Made by a program: the position numbers and the translations under genes. This document shows, piece by piece, positions 37,552-48,310 of a DNA stretch of 64,000 bases (position 1 is its first letter; each line of letters starts with the position of its first letter). The stretch is taken from contig NC_056551.1 of assembly GCF_910596095.1 (NCBI RefSeq), forward strand, positions 5,195,001 to 5,259,000, in the 5' to 3' direction. Source of the DNA: Thunnus maccoyii (lineage: Eukaryota > Chordata > Actinopteri > Scombriformes > Scombridae). The notes beneath the pieces were generated by a model that saw only the letters and a program-made list of their open reading frames with translations, did no database searches and had not been told where the DNA came from.

Positions 37552-38600
37552 CAGACTGTTCGAGACGCTTCAGCACAGTTTTTATACAGACTTCTTTTAT
37601 ACCAACATGGAATTTAGAAGTAGAAGTTTTTTTATTTTATGTTTTACATTGTTCATGACAATAAGTTGGTTTGTTTATTTATTAAGTGAGTTAAATTGAC
37701 AAATACCTTTTCGGTTTGTAGCTTTTGATACATTTGTTTTGCTCCTTTTAGTGTATCTTACGGGGGTTTGAGAATAGCGTAGAAGATACGTAAAAGTGCC
37801 TGATAAAATTAAACCAGAGAACTGTAAGAGTTGTGAAAGCATCTTTATAAAATATTTGCCCCTTGTAGAAACAGCAAATTTGGATTTAACCTGTAAAACT
37901 TGTACTGACAGCTGCTGTAAGTCATTATATTCTAGGACTGCAAGTAATTATTTTCATTATCAATTAATCTGTTTATTATTTTTGATTAATTGTTTGGTCC
38001 AGTAATGAAAATGTGACCTATAATCACAAGTTATGGCCTTTATGCTCTGTTGACATGAGATGTCAGCAGATGAGGTAAAGATTTGATGATGATTAATGAG
38101 GATTTTAGAGGCCTGAAGAGGTGAAAGCATCTAGTATGAGAGAAAAGCCAGACAATGTTTTCTTTCTTATCCTTTAATCATCTTGGAACAGCTCAGACTT
38201 ACTTTAGGGGTTACTGGGAGGTCCAAACCTCCATGTTGAGAACTACCGGTTTAGTCTGTAAAATGTGAACTAATAGTGACACATTACAAGTTTCCAGAGT
38301 CAAATAGCCCAAAAAAAATCAATTAGTTTACAATAATGTGAAACAAAACTCAGTATCAGTTAAGGATGTATTTTCTGTCCATCAACTAATCAAATAACTT
38401 TGTCATGCAAAACCTGTTTTTATCTTTTCAATCCTTTTGAGTGCAGAGAGGGGGTTTTGTAAATATGAACATCTTTGTAAGTGTCTGTAAGGGGAAGAGA
38501 AAACCTCATGCCCACTTAAAGCAATTATGTCTGTTGAAAAGACTCTTATTGTTTATGAAAAACTAAATAAAGTGTTAAAAAAAACTGATGAGTCAAGCAG
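37552..38600. other. nim1k 3' UTR and intergenic DNA
   Basis: AT-rich sequence after the nim1k stop codon. A candidate poly(A) signal AATAAA lies near 38,566. No gene is seen. Confidence 0.5.
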
Positions 38601-38619
38601 ATCTCATTGTTCCGGCAGA

Positions 38620-39115
38620 GCAGGTGGCTGCTGCTGCTGCTGCTGCACCCAAACAGAGCTGATCCTGCGTCTTTGTGGCCTGTTTACCAAAGTTTCACCA
38701 AGTGCCTGCGAGCAAATAATAGTCCCGACAGCAGCTGGCAGGACACCAGATGATACCCGGGACCCCTCTCGTCTCTACAACCGGTCCAAACCAGCCAGAC
38801 CCAACCCGACTGTCCCCTTTGGCAGTGGAGCGCAAACCAACCCCCGACTCCTCCCAGCCCTGCCCTGGCCGACCCCCACCTGCAGGAAGCGGCAGATGGC
38901 GCGGCGTGGCTGCGGAGACATCTGCAGGCCAGACAATAGGCGCTCTGTGCGGACCGCTGGAGCTGACAGGCCTGGAGCTCCGCTATTGTGCGCTGCGCTA
39001 TACACATGCAGATGAGGCGTGCAGGAGGAGGGACCGCAGAGGGCCTTTTTTTTTTTTTACTGCAGGGACAACAGCGAGCAGATGACAGGCCTTAGCGCCC
39101 TCCATGCAAATTTGC
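38620..39115. promoter_or_regulatory. GC-rich candidate enhancer with SOX, E-box and octamer sites
   Basis: A sharply GC-rich, repeat-free island with a short CTG run (about 38,628-38,646). It contains E-boxes cagatg (38,893), catctg (38,919), cagatg (39,009) and cagatg (39,079), SOX-like acaatagg (38,933) and ctattgt (38,983), and an octamer atgcaaat (39,104). Long open frames here are not protein-like. It lies about 1 kb downstream of the minus-strand gadd45 gene; the target gene is unknown. Confidence 0.35.
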
Positions 39116-39298
39116 TGAGTTTTAAACTTTTGTTAGTTTCGTAACACCCTCCCCCCCACCCCCTTCTCTCCATCCTCTATGACCCCTCACCATCTCCTCC
39201 AAACACACACACACAGGCACACAATATATACACACAGCTCAACTCTAAAACCCAAGAGAAAGTTAAGACACACAACGCCCAAAATATGATTTTTGTAT

Positions 39299-39304
39299 TT
39301 TATT
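39299..39304 (-). promoter_or_regulatory. gadd45g: Poly(A) signal of minus-strand gadd45
   Basis: AATAAA on the minus strand (tttatt on plus), about 800 bases beyond the stop codon. It lies outside the near-identical inverted repeat arm. Confidence 0.5.
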
Positions 39305-39500
39305 AAGCATTTTCCACTTACAATTTCCAACCATTTCTAAAGTGAAACTGATAGAAAGTTGTAAATTAGTTTGTTTCCAACATTGTTTCGACAGGATCAG
39401 AACATCTTAAATCAGATCTTCAGTTTTTAAATATTTCTGTTCTTCAGTACATAATTAAATGTTTCTAAGATACTCTTACAATTTCTCATATTTTTAACAT

Positions 39501-40533
39501 TAACTTAATTTAGTCATATTCTAAAGTGAAACCTTTAGAGAATAGACATTTTTTCAAAGTTTTTTTTTAAATGTTTTAGAATATTTTTGTCATTGTTAAA
39601 TTTCTAAAGTGAAACCTTTAGAGAATTAAGACAATTCTGGAAAGTGGGAAACATTTCCGCTGATTGCAACTGTTGTCATGTTGCTCAGCAAAGAGGACAC
39701 TTTTAAAAAGTCCCTTTTTAAGAAGGCCTCTTTCTCAGCACCGCTTCTTCTCCTGCTGCGCGTGCTTCAACGTGCGACGTTTGCTCTGTGGAACCACAGG
39801 ACGCAGAACTCGCATCTCCTTCCTCTCCAAACCTCATCCGCACAAAGAATGAGGGTCGATGTGTCGCTCTTGTGGCATACCTGACCTCATTCACATAAAG
39901 AATGAGAGTCATCTTGGCATGGACTGGACAAGAGGCGACGGTTCACGGGGGCCCCTCGGGCCGGCGCCGTGCTGCCTGGACGGGAATCCTCCTCAGGAGT
40001 ATCCAGGGATGAGAAGAAACAGGGTCATCCTGTTCATCAGGATGAGTATTTCCAGGTAAGAGCTTCACAGCATCTGTTCAAGAGAGGAGCCAAGTCCCAG
40101 ATCAACGCCCGGGCAGGCTGATCTCAGGAACCCAGTCGTTCAGACGGCGGCTCTCCTCACAGAACAGGTGCAGTTTCTCCAGAGCGGGGTCCTCCCAAGA
40201 ACCTTCAGCTGGGTTCTGTTCAAACAGGAAGAGGAGAGAAGCTTTAGTCACATGTTTTCTTTTTTAAAAGCATCACATAAAACAGTTTAGTAGAACAGAA
40301 TCCTGTTAACTGAGCCCTACATACCGTGATGAGGACGCAGTGAGCATCTTCAAGCTGCTCCGCTTTGTCGCCAACAATCTCAGCCAGACGCTGCATGTCG
40401 CTCACTCTGACGATGCTGATGTCGTTGTCAAAGCAGAAGGACTGGATGAGAGTGAAATGGATCTGGAGAGCGATATCACACTCAAACTCCTCATCCATGG
40501 CCAGGACGCAGAAAGACACGCTGTCCGGGTCAC
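39501..40533 (-). repeat. Inverted repeat arm 1 (gadd45 conversion tract)
   Basis: Pairs with 45,431-46,463 in inverted orientation with no net indel: positions sum to 85,964 throughout. By eye I count about six substitutions. The arm covers the second and third coding exons, the 109-bp intron between them and about 600 bp of 3' UTR. Identity stops abruptly at the intron 1 acceptor on one side and at 39,501 on the other. Confidence 0.9.
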
Positions 40534-40796
40534 TGTGGAAACAAGATAAAGGAAAAAACATGAGCTTTCATCCACAAAATTATCCAAAGCAGCTGATATA
40601 ATAAATGAAAATGTAGTAAAGCGAGTATCTGAAGCTGGAAGTCTCATACTTACAGATTCATAACTTTTGCGCACTCGTAGACACCGACGGTGAGGGAGTC
40701 GTTGTCTTTAGCGGTCTCCAGGACCTCCTCCAGGGCTTTGCCGGTGCACTGAGCACGCTCGGTGGGTTTCTGGATCAGAACTTCCTCAAGAGTCAT
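40102..40796 (-). CDS. gadd45g: GADD45 gamma-like protein, copy 1 (3 coding exons, 154 aa)
   Basis: Small acidic stress-inducible protein of the L7Ae/GADD45 fold. The family binds MTK1 (activating p38/JNK), PCNA, p21 and CDK1, mainly in the nucleus. Exons (minus): 40796-40654, 40532-40325, 40215-40102. The first exon encodes [10 protein letters not shown]…[11 protein letters not shown]. The second encodes the core [19 protein letters not shown] and ends HCVLIT. The third ends [19 protein letters not shown], closest to GADD45G. Canonical vertebrate GADD45 genes have four coding exons; here the first two appear fused. A TATA box (40,901-40,908) and an inverted CCAAT box (40,949-40,953) lie just upstream. 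Exons 2 and 3 are nearly identical to those of the plus-strand copy (one residue differs: Ala here, Thr there). The exact orthologue name is uncertain. Confidence 0.88.
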
Positions 40797-40900
40797 GATG
40801 AAGATGATGAAGATATTCCGCAAAGGGAAAGAGCTTTAGCAAGTGTGTTCGAGAGTAAATCCGAAAAGGAGCAGAGTGCTTTCAAACCTCGAGCCTCCGT

Positions 40901-40953
40901 CTTTTATACTCTTCAGCTCGTGCGGCGCAGTGAAAGCGCTGCGTCCTGATTGG
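40901..40953 (-). promoter_or_regulatory. gadd45g: Core promoter of gadd45 copy 1 (TATA + CCAAT)
   Basis: On the minus strand, TATAAAAG lies at 40,908-40,901, about 105 bases upstream of the ATG, and CCAAT within 'cagccaatcag' lies at 40,953-40,949. The same CAGCCAATCAG plus TATA arrangement is present at the plus-strand copy. Confidence 0.65.
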
Positions 40954-40969
40954 CTGAAGCTGAATGGTG

Positions 40970-43890
40970 TATTGGTATGATAATGCTATTGTCACACTCC
41001 GGCTCGTGGCAGATTGATGGAGGTCATCGAGCCACGCACGCTCCCCCTCTGTGCAGCAGCCTGGCCTGAAACTAAAAATAGCTTCATTAAAAAAAAAAAG
41101 TTTGATCACTCTGCAGCACCCTTTTGTGCAAATCACAGAAAACACAGCAGGTTATTCTGATTGCAGAGATTCTTCCTGAACAATAATTATCCTTTTGCAT
41201 GCATGTCTAAGAACTCTAGTGCACAAGAGCTTCTTATAGTGCCTTTTGGAATCACAAAAAACTATGTATTGATCATTTCAGCCACATAAACAAGCTTTCA
41301 AACTTTTTAAAATGCATCTTTTAGAACTATAAACTTTGCTAACAGAAAACTCAACAAATACCTAGCACTAATTGTTGCATTTTTAGACTTTTGGTCACAG
41401 TATTTCAGCAGCAACATAGAGAAAGTGTGAAGCGCCCCTCCCCCTGTCCCCTCTCCAAGCAGCAAAGAGAAAGGGCAGGTGGATGATGCCATCTGTGAGG
41501 CTGGCCATAAAACGGCCTCATTGTGCACACAGAAGCCCTCTATTATCACAGTTCCCATACAAATGCAAATGACCAGCGCGTGCCAGAACGCTGTGCGTGC
41601 TGCGCAATCTGCACTGCAGGCCCATGCTGACCACGTGGCCATCAGCTGTCCAGAAAATCCTTGCTTGGTTTTTATTTATTTACTCTGGGGAGTTCGGGGA
41701 CCACATGAGTGGACTTCTATAGGAAAACTTCAGAAGTTTATTGCACTTTTGTTTTGTATATCACTGTTTATCACTGTCATTGTCCGTGATTCTATTTAAA
41801 TCAATTTCTGAGAACGTTCTGTTAATTTCAGATCACGTTTACGCACGATTTAAGTTTTACGCACAACTCTATTTAATCTTTTCCGCTGATTAAGCACTTT
41901 ATCTCCCACAATATCACGTGTTTTTTGGTTTTATATAGTATTTTGTGTGTAGATCCACTAGATATCAAATAAACAAATATTGCCAACTGTCTGTTAATAT
42001 CTGATCACTTTTACGCACGACGGAACCTTTACGCACGGTTCTATTTTATCTGTTACACTGGTTGAGCAGTTTCTCCCCAACAGCTCGTGCTTATTTGGTG
42101 ATATTCCTGCTGCATGATAATTCAAAACACATCTTGCATCAGGTCAGGCCTGCAGCCACTGCTGCGTAAATAGAGAAGGGGGGCTGGAGTGCAGAGGTGG
42201 TGGAGGAGACACGGGTTGGCGGTGATTGATTCAGCGCTATTGTTCTACGAATGCAGAGCGGCAGATGGAGAACTGTCGCTATGAGGAACCCCCCTCCCCC
42301 CCTCCTCTCCTCTCTCCTAAACCTAGGTCAACCCTGACCCCAGGGCGCGCCCGATCTTTTGTCTACAAGTCTCCACATTCGCTCATCTGTTGTCTGAGTT
42401 TTGATTAAATTTAAATGCCAAAGAGGAGAGCTTATGGTCCAAACTTTCACAATGAAAAGTGTTATCTCCAAAAGATACCAGACACGTAAAGGCAGATAAA
42501 AATCTCTTTCAGTTTGAGCTGTAAACACGTGCAAGAATGCTGAAAGTGTGTTTTTTTCAACAACAAAACGCTTATCTGTACATTATTGCAACAACAAAGT
42601 CATTTGTTTATTTCCAAGTTGCTTTCAGTTTCTGTCAGCATGCTGCAAATCCGCCCGCACATCAGCTGGCCGAGAGGCTTAAATTTGGGCCAAAGTTTGA
42701 TTTGGATCCAGCTGATAGGGACTCCAAACACTGAGCTATTTTAGGAAGGATCAGCTTGCATGGCCACGGGGCAGGCGCGTGCAAATCGATACCGACCTAT
42801 TGTTGCTGAAACACATCTGCCAAACGGAGGCCTCCCAGGCTGCGCGCGACAGGTGTTGGTGGTCAAAGCTCCTCCGCTGACCTGTGGCGACTCAGCAAAG
42901 CCTTAAACCTCTTTCTAAAGATGGAAAGTGTCTAAAGCTGCAAGATAAATCAACGTTTTGTAAATGTCTGGCTTATATGAACGCACTTGAGGAGGATAAG
43001 GAAGTTAAGCGAACATTTTAGATATAGAAATAAAAATATACTGTCATTATTTATCCTTCATTTATCAAATTACTTCTCCTTTTTTTTTCTTTTCTTTTTT
43101 TTTTTTTTTACCAAGAAAACATGAATAAATCTAAACTTAACGAATCTAAGTGTGATTTTGCTAAAGTTCTGCCTTCAGATTCGTTTAGACTTGAAGACTT
43201 TAAATCACATTTGCAGCGGAATAAAAAAGTAACCCCTCGTGCAGCCCTCACGCCCAGCAGGTGCTGCCTGACTTCCTTTGTCCACCCTCCCCTCACCTTC
43301 CCCCCGGGGACAGATGGTATCTCTCGGTTGCTATGGAGAGGGATGCAGACAGAGAGATAAAGCATGGAGGTATCTCCAGATGCCACGCGCCTCAAGTGAG
43401 GACCGGCTTTACGCATGCAAAGCAGCGGCGCGTGCCATTGCCTAATCTACAAAAAACAGTTCATGCAGTGAAATTGGTCATGAGTTATAAAAGTCAGTGT
43501 GACATCCAGCACAATTACACTGGTGGGTATATTAGCATCATAACGCTTCAAACAACACCAAATTGCAGCTTAAGCATGTTTTATTGAATTTTCCAAACTT
43601 TATTATATATAGTGTTCATACTGTTATGACGCAGGATCAAACATTATGTAACTTAAGAGGCATTTGAAGGAAGTTTTAGCTCTTTATCTACAAACCATGT
43701 GTTATTTGCTTACAAATGCATGCCACAGATTTGCATGTTCAAATGTATTTTTCTCACTGTTACTGGTGGCCTTTGATTTCCATGGCAGTATAGAAACATC
43801 CAGAGAAACATGAAAATTGGATTGTCAGAAAGTCAAACCAGGTTTGAACATGTTTGAGATCAACATAAGACTTCATTTGACAAACCTTAA
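40970..43890. promoter_or_regulatory. Spacer between divergent gadd45 genes, candidate enhancers
   Basis: No gene. Several short GC-richer blocks are separated by AT-rich DNA. An octamer atgcaaat lies at 41,563. SOX-like ctattgtt at 42,237 with cagatg at 42,262, and ctattgtt at 42,797 with catctg at 42,814, form two similar pairs. Position between two head-to-head stress and neurogenesis genes suggests shared regulation, which is inference. Confidence 0.3.
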
Positions 43891-43899
43891 CCCAATGAG

Positions 43900-44810
43900 G
43901 TGAGAACAGTCACAGCACAATGTTGAATCAGACTTTTATTTTTCAGGTTTTCATCATACAGACAAAACACATATGCAGTGATTTTTTCTAACATAAAACA
44001 TAAAAACAAAAGCTTTAGTGTTACGTTTCTGTTTCGTTCTTGTCTTTCCATATTGTTCCATTTATTTCCATACAACAGGAAAATCAATTAGCAGACTTTT
44101 GAAACTTGCTTTAATTGTGTAATCCATGTAATCCAGTATGTATTCGTTTTTGTCAAAGTTGCATTACATTATCATTGCATAATGCAGTTTAAAACAGTTC
44201 AAACCTCAATAATTTGACTCTGACAAAAATGAATGAAGACTTTATTTATAGAATTTTGAATCTATATTTTGGACTCTAGGCAGCCATTACTTTCACTATG
44301 TTTTCAGTACGGTATGAAAATCAGTTAACAGACTCTTGAAACGTGGGGGTTTTGCATGTTCACATCTTCAATACATTGAACTTATACTGTTGTGTTGTTG
44401 ACTTTTGGATGTGTCTGTTTACATTCCAGGCAGGCATCATTTTTGCATGGTATGAAAATCCCTTACACTTGAAACTTTCTTGAGTTGTATAATCCATCAT
44501 AGTGAACATCAGGTGTGCAATATTTTTTGTCAAGTTACATTTTTGTTACAGGTTAAATCAGTTCAGACTTATCAAATCAATCCTCACTGTATACGCTCAA
44601 AAAACCTAAAAACTTAAAAAGCTTGAAATGGAAATTAAACTGCATTACCATGCAATGATGATGAATGAAGCAAGTTTCAAGAGTCTATTAATACATTTTC
44701 ATAACATGCAGAAATGAATGAAAATCAATGGCTGCCTGAAATGTCTGCAATTACATTCAAAAATCTACAACACAATATCATAAACTGCCAAATGCACTGA
44801 AGATGTGACT
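43900..44810. repeat. Cluster of diverged repeats, direct and inverted
   Basis: At least three direct diverged copies contain text like 'tatgaaaatcagttaacaga' then 'ctcttgaaac' (about 44,075, 44,313 and 44,450). A fourth copy is inverted at about 44,665-44,740 ('caagtttcaagagtctatta'). Companion text 'aggcagccatta' or 'aggcaggcatca' precedes each direct copy at 44,279 and 44,430. Non-coding, directly upstream of the plus-strand gadd45 gene. Confidence 0.6.
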
Positions 44811-45095
44811 ATGACAAACCCTTGTATCGTCCTCTATCAGTATGAATGGGAGTTATTGTTTGATTCTACATCTTCCAGAACTTGGAGGACTTTGACAACA
44901 GCAGTCTGATCCTCCTGTGTGGTTTCATTATTCCTGTAAGCTGAAAGAATCATTTAAAGGTCAGAGAGTTTCTACATCTGATCCTTTCAACCAAAGCTGC
45001 CCCCAACTTTCCTTCTAAGACTTTTCTATAGGCACGCGTCCCTAAGGGTGGGGTTGGGGGCTGCAGGCCTGTTGTAGCCATTGTGCTTCAAACAG

Positions 45096-45135
45096 CCAAT
45101 CAGAGGGTGAGCGTGTGCCGGGTCTGTAGTATAAA
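45096..45135 (+). promoter_or_regulatory. gadd45g: Core promoter of gadd45 copy 2 (CCAAT + TATA)
   Basis: CCAAT at 45,096-45,100 within 'cagccaatcag' and TATAAA at 45,130-45,135, about 86 bases upstream of the ATG. The architecture matches copy 1 although surrounding bases differ. Confidence 0.65.
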
Positions 45136-45220
45136 TGCTGGCAGATTCTTGGAGGCAGCACAAACACTCTTCTCTGGAGTTTCTGACCACATCAGCTGAA
45201 CTGTAAGATAAAACTTCACC

Positions 45221-45862
45221 ATGCAGTCTCCTGGAAAATCTCTGAAGGAAGCTCTGCTCTGTGCTCAGAGCGAGGATCGACTCACTGTTGGAGTCTATGA
45301 GAGTGCCAAAATCATGACTGAGTAAGTAAACTAAACATGACATCAGTATGACTTTACATGCTCTTTGAACATTCAACTTGATCAACATCTGAGAGCAGCA
45401 GTTAACAGGAGGTGTCATTTCTTTGTTTCAGTGACCCGGACAGCGTGTCTTTCTGCGTCCTGGCCATGGATGAGGAGTTTGAGTGTGATATCGCTCTCCA
45501 GATCCATTTCACGCTCATCCAGTCCTTCTGCTTCGACAACGACATCAGCATCGTCAGAGTGAGCGACATGCAGCGTCTGGCTGAGATTGTTGGCGACAAG
45601 GCGGAGCAGCTTGAAGATGCTCACTGCGTCCTCATCACGGTATGTAGAGCTCAGTTATCAGGATTCTGTTCTACTAAACTGTTTTATGTGATGCTTTTAA
45701 AAAAGAAAACATGTGACTAAAGCTTCTCTCCTCTTCCTGTTTGAACAGAACCCAGCTGAAGGTTCTTGGGAGGACCCCACTCTGGAGAAACTGCACCTGT
45801 TCTGTGAGGAGAGCCGCCGTCTGAACGACTGGGTTCCTGAGATCAGCCTGCCCGGGCGTTGA
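45221..45862 (+). CDS. gadd45g: GADD45 gamma-like protein, copy 2 (3 coding exons, 140 aa)
   Basis: Second member of the divergent GADD45 pair; same fold and family role as copy 1. Exons: 45221-45321, 45432-45639, 45749-45862. The protein begins [20 protein letters not shown], then [13 protein letters not shown], and lacks the MTLEE-type N-terminal extension, making it 14 residues shorter than copy 1. From residue 34 it is the same as copy 1 except one Ala/Thr change in the EDP(T/A)LEKL segment. The start codon is the first ATG after the TATA box. Since the conserved core is complete it should be functional. The differing N-terminus and promoter give the pair room for separate regulation. Poly(A) signal at 46,717-46,722. 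The alternative, a collapsed or duplicated assembly error, is unlikely because first exons differ. Confidence 0.88.
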
Positions 45863-46463
45863 TCTGGGACTTGGCTCCTCTCTTGAACAGATGCTGTGAA
45901 GCTCTTACCTGGAAATACTCATCCTGATGAACAGGATGACCCTGTTTCTTCTCATCCCTGGATACTCCTGAGGAGGATTCCCGTCCAGGCAGCACGGCGC
46001 CGGCCCGAGGGGCCCCCGTGAACCGTCGCCTCTTGTCCAGTCCATGCCAAGATGACTCTCATTCTTTATGTGAATGAGGTCAGGTATGCCACAAGAGCGA
46101 CACATCGACCCTCATTCTTTGTGCGGATGAGGTTTGGAGAGGAAGGAGATGCGAGTTCTGCGTCCTGTGGTTCCACAGAGCAAACGTCGCACGTTGAAGC
46201 ACGCGCAGCAGGAGAAGAAGCGGTGCTGAGAAAGAGGCCTTCTTAAAAAGGGACTTTTTAAAAGTGTCCTCTTTGCTGAGCAACATGACAACAGTTGCAA
46301 TCAGCGGAAATGTTTCCCACTTTCCAGAATTGTCTTAATTCTCTAAAGGTTTCACTTTAGAAATTTAACAATGACAAAAATATTCTAAAACATTTAAAAA
46401 AAAACTTTGAAAAAATGTCTATTCTCTAAAGGTTTCACTTTAGAATATGACTAAATTAAGTTA
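45431..46463 (+). repeat. Inverted repeat arm 2 (gadd45 conversion tract)
   Basis: Counterpart of 39,501-40,533. The 5' limit coincides with the intron 1 acceptor. Substitutions cluster in the exon 2/intron 2 part (five in about 317 bp), one is in exon 3, and none was seen by eye across the 3' UTR part. Confidence 0.9.
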
Positions 46464-46654
46464 AAATATTGGAGAAAAACTAAAATTGAATAGTTTTCCT
46501 ATATATTTTAGATATAACATTGACCGAAAATACAAAAAGTGTTAGAATAAAAAACAAACAATTGTATGAATCTGATGTTGAATCTTGAAATGTGAAAAAT
46601 ATGGAAAAATACATAAAACTGAAAATGTAGTACTTCCTGAAGGTTTCACTTCAG
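46343..46654 (+). other. gadd45g: Iterated hairpin in gadd45 3' UTR
   Basis: Three copies of a 6-bp stem with a six-base loop: CTAAAG-GTTTCA-CTTTAG at 46,343-46,360 and 46,426-46,443, and CTGAAG-GTTTCA-CTTCAG at 46,637-46,654. The third copy carries a paired change (A to G in the left arm, T to C in the right arm) that keeps base pairing. The first two also exist in copy 1 at 39,604-39,621 and 39,521-39,538. Confidence 0.6.
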
Positions 46655-46716
46655 TTTTATTATATATATGTCAAGTGAAATAACTTCTTTTCTATTTTGT
46701 ATGACGAAAGCCTACA

Positions 46717-46722
46717 AATAAA
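46717..46722 (+). promoter_or_regulatory. gadd45g: Poly(A) signal of gadd45 copy 2
   Basis: AATAAA about 855 bases after the stop codon, downstream of the third 3' UTR hairpin and outside the near-identical arm. Confidence 0.55.
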
Positions 46723-47274
46723 ATATTTGAAGTCAACATTGCTCTCTGACTCTCTCATCTGAGGTTTAAATTTTCCAAAGCATAAATGAAGTCTCATGTT
46801 TACCTTTTTTCAGCAAACCTGCTTCAGTCTAGTTTGACTTTTTGATTTTCTGATCCCTTTTTGGGGATTTCTGTGAAGGTTTCCTGTACTTTCAAATTTG
46901 ACTTTGGACAAATGCAGCTGTGATGACTATACAACTATAATGTCAGGTCATTATATATTTACTTGTGTTCAAATAGTGCAGCATGCAAAATCTAATTCAA
47001 ATATAATACATGGTGCTTTAGGTTGTACAGCTAATAAGTAATAAGTGAGCATGCAACAGAAGAAAATAATATGAATCGCAATCAGCTAATGTATTGATTA
47101 CAATGTGAGTGACATGTGCTAATGGTTTCTGGGGTGGAGATTGTGTTGATCAACACTTTTCACTTCTCTTGGGCTCAGTATGGTATTTTTTACTGAGACA
47201 GATGTCATTTCAAAGCTGTGGCAAAAGCAGGCTTCATTTTATATCTAGAACACCAAGTTTAAAGTAGTAGATTT

Positions 47275-47786
47275 AGATTGTGGGAAATTAGCTTTTTTGC
47301 TTTCTTGCCAAGAGTTAGATGAGAAGATTTATACATTATGATACCAGAAGTACATGCACGCTGAATCAATCCTCCTTTTACTTTTATTTACAGCGTGAAA
47401 CGCTACAGGTTTTCCTCAGACAAATGCTTTTTGTATCCAGCACCTATCCACTGAGGTCTAAATATGCTGCTAGAGCCAGCATATGGTTAGCTTAGCTTAG
47501 CTTAGCTTAGCATAAAGACTGGCAACAGGGGTAAACCACTTCTGTCCAAAAGTAAAAACAAAGATTCACCCGCCAGCAACTCCAAAGGCTCACTAACACT
47601 TTATACCTTGTTTGTTTAATCTGTACAAGTTTAAATATAAATTTGTGCTCTGTGACAAAGCTAACTGTCTGCTGGCTTTAGCATCTTTAGCATACAAACA
47701 CAGGAGTGGTGTCAATCATCTCATCTAAACTCTCGGCAAGAATATTTATAAGCGTATTTCTCAAAATGTCAACCTATTCCTTTAAA
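47275..47786 (+). repeat. Dispersed teleost repeat, family A copy 2
   Basis: Shares ordered landmarks with 32,636-33,006: 'tgggaaattagc', 'cttgccaagagttagatgag', 'ataaagactggcaacagggg', 'ggctcactaacac' and the end 'cctattcctttaaac'. It contains a short TTAGC-type tandem run (about 47,490-47,512) typical of the family. Confidence 0.75.

Positions 47787-48257: not shown

Positions 48258-48310
<53 letters not shown>
48258..48310. repeat. (CA)n microsatellite
   Basis: About 26 uninterrupted CA units. Confidence 0.98.

Follow-up and report, generated by a model that had tools for sequence, protein, structure and literature searches.

Two gadd45g-like genes of Thunnus maccoyii stand head to head, with their start codons 4.4 kb apart, and share a nearly identical segment that runs from exon 2 into the 3' untranslated region (3'UTR). 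We conclude with considerable confidence that this identity is kept by ectopic gene conversion, probably repeated, between old inverted paralogues. The genes lie in C19:5,195,001-5,259,000, a stretch of 64,000 nucleotides (hereafter the window, to which positions given without a contig refer), and the genome in which we searched comprises 782 Mb in 54 contigs. Gene A, on the minus strand, encodes a protein of 154 amino acid residues, and gene B, on the plus strand, encodes one of 140. Both gene models have three exons with open reading frames and an intron 2 of 109 bp, and both proteins contain PF01248 (the L7Ae/L30e/S12e/Gadd45 domain) above the cut-off. In the comparison with the PDB, made with the gene A protein, the best matches were 2wal, 3ffm, and 3cg6 (GADD45 gamma), with 193-194 bits versus 162 for alpha. 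The parts of the two genes are as follows.

39,501-40,533, minus strand: arm A, which runs from the last base of the intron-1 acceptor through exon 2, intron 2, and exon 3 and takes in 601 bp of 3'UTR (sequence comparison and gene model)
45,431-46,463, plus strand: arm B, the putatively homogenised part of gene B, which differs from arm A by 6 substitutions without any indel
40,654-40,796, minus strand: gene A exon 1, coding part (gene model)
45,221-45,321, plus strand: gene B exon 1, coding part, whose start aligns to an internal position of gene A (gene model)
40,325-40,532, minus strand: gene A exon 2 (gene model)
45,432-45,639, plus strand: gene B exon 2 (gene model)
40,216-40,324, minus strand: gene A intron 2, with 2 differences from gene B (gene model)
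45,640-45,748, plus strand: gene B intron 2 (gene model)
40,102-40,215, minus strand: gene A exon 3, coding part including the stop codon (gene model)
45,749-45,862, plus strand: gene B exon 3, coding part including the stop codon (gene model)
39,501-40,101, minus strand: gene A proximal 3'UTR, 601 bp identical to gene B, with an unusually stable fold
45,863-46,463, plus strand: gene B proximal 3'UTR, with the same sequence as in gene A

An earlier examination of this DNA (the sequence-only reading) had described an inverted tract of 1,033 bp with no net indel and about six substitutions, which starts at the intron-1 acceptor and ends sharply in the 3'UTR. Set in register, the arms indeed differ at exactly 6 of the 1,033 positions without an indel (99.4% identity), and the acceptor CAG/TGACCC stands at the arm start in both gene models. 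Alignment lengthened the arms by only one or two bases, to 39,500-40,535 and 45,429-46,464. Beyond the 3' end of the arms, no significant similarity was found by alignment (44 and 29 of 200 shuffles reached the score), nor was any found farther out (94 and 22 of 100 shuffles). The hairpin-like motif noted earlier at about 39,336-39,353 is real, and only such hairpin units, described below, carry residual homology past this end; the weak similarity that had been reported to continue beyond the tract is otherwise not significant. Three of the six substitutions are synonymous, one is nonsynonymous (Ala/Thr), and two are in intron 2. All of them lie within the first 349 bp, and the final 684 bp of the arms are identical; the earlier observation of some 600 bp of 3' noncoding sequence without differences is thus borne out (0 of 601). 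At the Ala/Thr site, gene B is probably the derived copy, because the gadd45g gene on contig C9 carries an Ala codon at this position. A search of the genome with the full arm found two copies only, both at this locus; three further matches, at the level of exons, were to gadd45 genes of C9 and C7.

Sequence divergence marks the first exons as older than the arms. In the exon-1 core, the two genes have 18 of 33 residues (54.5%) and 61% of 96 aligned nucleotides in common, and they are still significantly alike (none of 200 shuffles reached the alignment score). The divergence of each part, a calculation suggested by the sequence-only reading, showed a dS beyond estimation in exon 1 and diverged flanks, against a dS of 0.046 (three synonymous differences among about 67 sites), a dN of 0.004, and 99.1% protein identity in exons 2-3. 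Exon 1 of gene A is more similar to that of the C9 gadd45g (67.6%) than to that of gene B, and exon 1 of gene B is likewise more similar to the C9 gadd45g and to the solved GADD45 gamma (57.6% in both cases) than to that of gene A. In exons 2-3, the identity to the C9 gadd45g is 69.8% for gene A and 68.9% for gene B. We constructed trees of nine proteins, the exon-1 tree being based on 34 columns from the genes of this genome. In the tree of exons 2-3, genes A and B group together with a support of 99/98 and end branches of 0 and 0.009. In the exon-1 tree, their end branches are 0.60 and 0.61, and this tree leaves their placement open.

The introns 1 of the two genes showed no significant similarity (148 of 200 shuffles reached the score in the strict alignment and 174 in the loose one). 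The promoters retain a weak collinear similarity of CCAAT and TATA elements (9 and 14 of 200 shuffles reached the score), located as follows.

40,902-40,908, minus strand: gene A TATA-like box, with CCAAT at 40,949-40,953
45,130-45,136, plus strand: gene B TATA-like box, with CCAAT at 45,096-45,100

The first exons and the promoters are therefore strongly diverged, as had been proposed, but the weakly collinear promoters should not be called unrelated.

Ectopic conversion between close inverted duplicates leaves near-identical arms that include introns, diverged flanks, and edges at positions where homology is lost. The present locus has this form, namely, a sharply bounded and highly identical tract within paralogues that are otherwise old, and it differs in nothing essential from known cases of ectopic conversion and concerted evolution of inverted duplicates; here, no part is as clean as the shared 3'UTR. 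From the mosaic of an old exon 1, an unalignable intron 1, arms of 99.4% identity, and diverged ends, we infer gene conversion of old paralogues. Selection on the protein cannot explain the arms, because intron 2 (2 of 109 positions) and the 3'UTR are about as alike as the coding parts. The start of the tract at the intron-1 acceptor needs no special mechanism, as homology ends there, and the diverged third hairpin units beyond the tract fit an old duplicate with unconverted ends.

We consider that an ancient gadd45g-like gene would have been duplicated long ago in inverted orientation, after which the promoter, exon 1, and intron 1 of both copies would have diverged. The inverted arms could then pair within or between chromatids, and repair would copy one arm onto the other until homology is lost, which happens at the unalignable intron 1 on one side and in the diverged distal 3'UTR on the other. 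Exon 1 would escape because of its short length and its identity of only 61%; in addition, selection may perhaps have favored separate N-termini and promoters. The result would be one protein core and one structured 3'UTR under two promoters with two N-termini; two genes with a common core and 3'UTR but different N-termini and promoters, the outcome foreseen in the sequence-only reading, are what we observe.

A diverged exon 1 next to near-identical arms would likewise be produced if exons 2-3 and the 3'UTR had recently been duplicated in inverted orientation beside or onto an old first exon by exon shuffling, two complete old genes never having undergone conversion. However, this would require a breakpoint exactly at the intron-1 acceptor and in the right phase, and also that both arms be followed, about equally far downstream, by a related third hairpin unit. 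In addition, a single recent event is unlikely in view of the arrangement published for the guppy (see below), unless the two fishes are closely related. We therefore regard exon shuffling as improbable.

The sequence-only reading had favored recent conversion over a simple recent duplication. The mosaic is as conversion predicts, but a single event followed by neutral drift is a poor fit to the clean 3'UTR. Under uniformity, the confinement of six differences to the first 349 bp has a P of about 0.0015, and the contrast between 5 neutral-type differences in about 176 synonymous and intron sites and none in 601 3'UTR sites has a P of about 6e-4; both values were calculated after the pattern had been seen. 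Purifying selection on the 3'UTR, or a later and shorter nested conversion, would explain this pattern. A history of two layers, with an older conversion of the entire arm and a younger one confined to the final 684 bp, is a variant of repeated conversion and not exclusive of it. The position of the differences, with its post hoc P, speaks for two layers, and nothing speaks directly against them, but selection on a structured 3'UTR explains the same data; we treat this history as a serious possibility, from which we lean slightly away.

The shared 3'UTR has an unusually stable predicted fold. Relative to dinucleotide shuffles, the z value of the 601 bp was -5.5 (60 shuffles) and -10.3 (20 shuffles). 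The full 3'UTRs gave values of -6.5 (sense) and -6.7 (antisense) for gene B and -6.1 and -4.1 for gene A, whereas the distal parts alone were ordinary on the sense strand (-0.1 and -1.4). The sense values of five other gadd45 3'UTRs ranged from -1.3 to +0.9 (C9 gadd45g, -1.2), and those of three nearby control sequences from -1.5 to 0; on the antisense strand, the values of these other sequences were as low as -2.9. As the antisense of the 601 bp (-5.0) is nearly as extreme as the sense, the stability of the fold alone is no proof of a role in RNA, nor does it demonstrate a strand-specific RNA structure, the full 3'UTR of gene B being even more extreme in antisense. A dispersed repeat was rejected, as the genome search found no match of the 601 bp outside the two genes. 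The stably folding and difference-free 3'UTR is a candidate for shared control at the mRNA level.

The stable fold and the 601 bp without differences might suggest that purifying selection alone keeps the arms identical. Against this stand the synonymous sites, with 3 differences in about 67, and intron 2, which are nearly identical although the dS of exon 1 is beyond estimation. Nor does any other gadd45 gene of this genome show the 601-bp 3'UTR to be deeply conserved, as the comparison made, a search of the genome with this sequence, found no match outside genes A and B. Selection as the sole cause is hardly credible in our judgment; purifying selection could nevertheless act on top of conversion.

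The neighborhood of the two genes includes a GHR domain (PF12772) at 23.6-24.6 kb of the window and a protein kinase gene at 35.8-37.5 kb, which we take to be NIM1K.

Dor et al. in 2019 (PMC6829149) described a GADD45G-like pair (LOC103474023) on LG12 of the guppy (Poecilia reticulata). According to the passages of that paper available to us, the two genes stand head to head at a distance of about 4 kb, each has three exons, and exons 2-3 are identical while exon 1 is different. The proteins have 151 and 137 residues, and the long form is expressed 15 times more. The genes of the interval include HTR1A, RNF180, C7, GHR, and NIM1K, and P. formosa has two copies (LOC103130705 and LOC103130706), also encoding 151 and 137 residues. 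These passages speak of duplicates and isoforms; the only one that mentions gene conversion concerns sex linkage, and they contain no discussion of conversion between the copies or of the 3'UTR. The guppy pair has been put forward as a candidate for sex determination on LG12, a role disputed by a later paper (PMC7534449, in the part available). The passage available from a 2025 paper on the haplotype-resolved guppy Y includes two GADD45 gamma genes, separated by about 4 kb, among the genes of the male-specific region (PMC11960691).

The pair studied here resembles the guppy pair, as published, in the head-to-head orientation, the close spacing, the similar exons 2-3 with different exons 1, and the neighbors GHR and NIM1K, the two genes of the guppy interval that were looked for. 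Thus, the locus is very probably orthologous to the guppy GADD45G-like locus. Although the lengths themselves differ (154 and 140 residues here), the longer protein has 14 residues more than the shorter in both fishes, and each member is 3 residues longer here than the published length. A gap of 14 residues kept between the copies and a shift of 3 residues common to both are what concerted evolution predicts, and the likeness to the guppy, as far as the published text describes it, probably reflects recurrent concerted evolution rather than one event. Because we used a single assembly, one arm might also have been copied or mis-joined. Such an artefact is very improbable, as the arms differ by six substitutions and have different flanks, both gene models are open and in frame, and a similar two-gene arrangement is described in the available text on the guppy and P. 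formosa. Our literature searches found no paper on conversion between these two genes. The architecture of the locus is already in print for the guppy, and the present locus is a well-resolved further case of a known process.

Several points weigh against recurrent conversion of old paralogues. The exon-1 tree does not reject genes A and B as sisters, and rapid change restricted to exon 1 of gene B could imitate some of the contrast in age. A conversion of single age fits the difference-free 3'UTR poorly without an added assumption (post hoc P about 6e-4). The case for recurrence draws on published text and protein lengths. The guppy sequence was, according to the same text, built by placing short reads on that of P. 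formosa, a procedure that could itself blur the copies (PMC6829149), and the passage on the guppy Y lists two genes but gives no identity between them (PMC11960691).

The hairpin units of the 3'UTRs and the poly(A) signals are as follows.

46,342-46,361, plus strand: hexaloop hairpin unit 1, TCTAAAG-GTTTCA-CTTTAGA (mirror copy at 39,603-39,622)
46,425-46,444, plus strand: hexaloop hairpin unit 2 (mirror copy at 39,520-39,539)
46,637-46,654, plus strand: third hairpin of gene B, CTGAAG-GTTTCA-CTTCAG, outside the tract
39,332-39,361, minus strand: third unit of gene A, degenerate and located beyond the tract; it shares GTTTCACTTTAGAAAT with unit 1 and has a weaker, different fold
39,299-39,304, minus strand: gene A poly(A) signal AATAAA, outside the tract (sequence)
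46,717-46,722, plus strand: gene B poly(A) signal AATAAA, outside the tract (sequence)

Each arm thus contains two copies of TCTAAAG-GTTTCA-CTTTAGA. The third unit of gene B differs from them by one compensatory change (A-U to G-C), and the 16-mer GTTTCACTTTAGAAAT is common to the motif at about 39,336 and the first of the two hairpin units of the arm. The third units of both genes lie beyond the tract at a similar distance from the stop codon and are diverged; the hairpin array therefore probably predates the duplication. Use of an earlier AATAAA of gene B, at about 46,546, would leave out its third unit. The hairpin pattern CTNAAGGTTTCACTTNAG has five exact matches in the genome, all at this locus, and a reversed control has none. 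In the shared 3'UTR, there are seven hairpins with a stem of at least 7 bp, a number reached by none of 300 shuffles, and stems of 6 bp show a weak excess (27 of 300 shuffles). The six stems of at least 7 bp in the 722 nt of the C9 gadd45g, a count made without a shuffle control, argue against this number being special.

The shared 3'UTR also contains the hairpins CTCATTC-(7 nt)-GAATGAG and CTCATTC-(7 nt)-GGATGAG at 46,057-46,132. The U-G pair in the second of these is the only hint for the sense strand of an RNA. The hexaloop units are similar to the Roquin alternative decay element (ADE), described in the 3'UTR of Ox40 (PMC5603727, as far as available), in being 3'UTR hairpins with a 6-7 bp stem and a U-rich hexaloop from G to A. 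The predictive consensus of the ADE, as given in the available part of its source, is a GUUYUA loop on a stem of 6-8 bp (PMC6294493). The stem agrees with it, but the loop here is GUUUCA, with C at position 5 where the consensus has U, and we did not accept the units as Roquin ADEs. A functional stem-loop in a GADD45 mRNA is known from the available account of the GADD45B 3'UTR escape element in human cells (PMC5589255), to which the present units are likened by description, without alignment. In Rfam, searched over 38,500-47,500 at a lax threshold, none of seven matches reached the gathering score, and we took them as chance.

Between the arms, the middle of 4.9 kb, with both promoters and first exons, might form a switchable cassette that is inverted by crossover between the arms; we consider this doubtful. 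Such a crossover would exchange the pairing of promoter and N-terminus with arm and distal 3'UTR, and neither gene would be broken. If the cassette exists, conversion and harmless inversion would together keep the core and the structured 3'UTR and leave the evolution of the gene starts unconstrained, and species as well as individuals of one species may differ in the orientation of the middle. As we read it, the locus is a small natural example of partial concerted evolution: the beginning of a gene can diverge, and its core and 3'UTR are held the same. If the guppy arms are equally alike, reads from exons 2-3 and the 3'UTR would not be assignable to one copy, and expression analysis and variant calls in that species should use exon 1.

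A protein search of the genome gave 22 matches at E values up to 10, which we read as eight gadd45 loci: the two genes described here, C9, C7:34.25 Mb, C16, C7:5.24 Mb, C12, and a copy on C10. We take C9 to be gadd45g, C7:34.25 Mb and C16 to be gadd45b-like, and C7:5.24 Mb and C12 to be gadd45a-like, names that we assigned from similarity to two solved proteins and from general knowledge. The copy at C10:31,378,347-31,378,589 resembles the C9 gadd45g, has in-frame stops, and looks like a pseudogene. In the C9 gadd45g, the piece encoding MTLEE is separate from the next coding piece, and the two are continuous in gene A (40,654-40,796). Gene B (45,221-45,321) is without a first piece of the MTLEE type. 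Beyond this genome, the search for relatives gave pattern matches in viral contigs (2 stretches) and prokaryote genome contigs (38), none of which was confirmed.

Some minor features were also observed around the two genes. The intergenic middle contains imperfect direct and inverted repeats of 26-56 nt with 73-81% identity at 44,056-44,821. On the minus strand at 44,838-44,950, a short open stretch (ETTQEDQTAVVKVLQVLEDVES) follows an acceptor-like CTTACAG and may be due to chance. A long CA microsatellite is located 3' of gene B, at 48,258-48,310.

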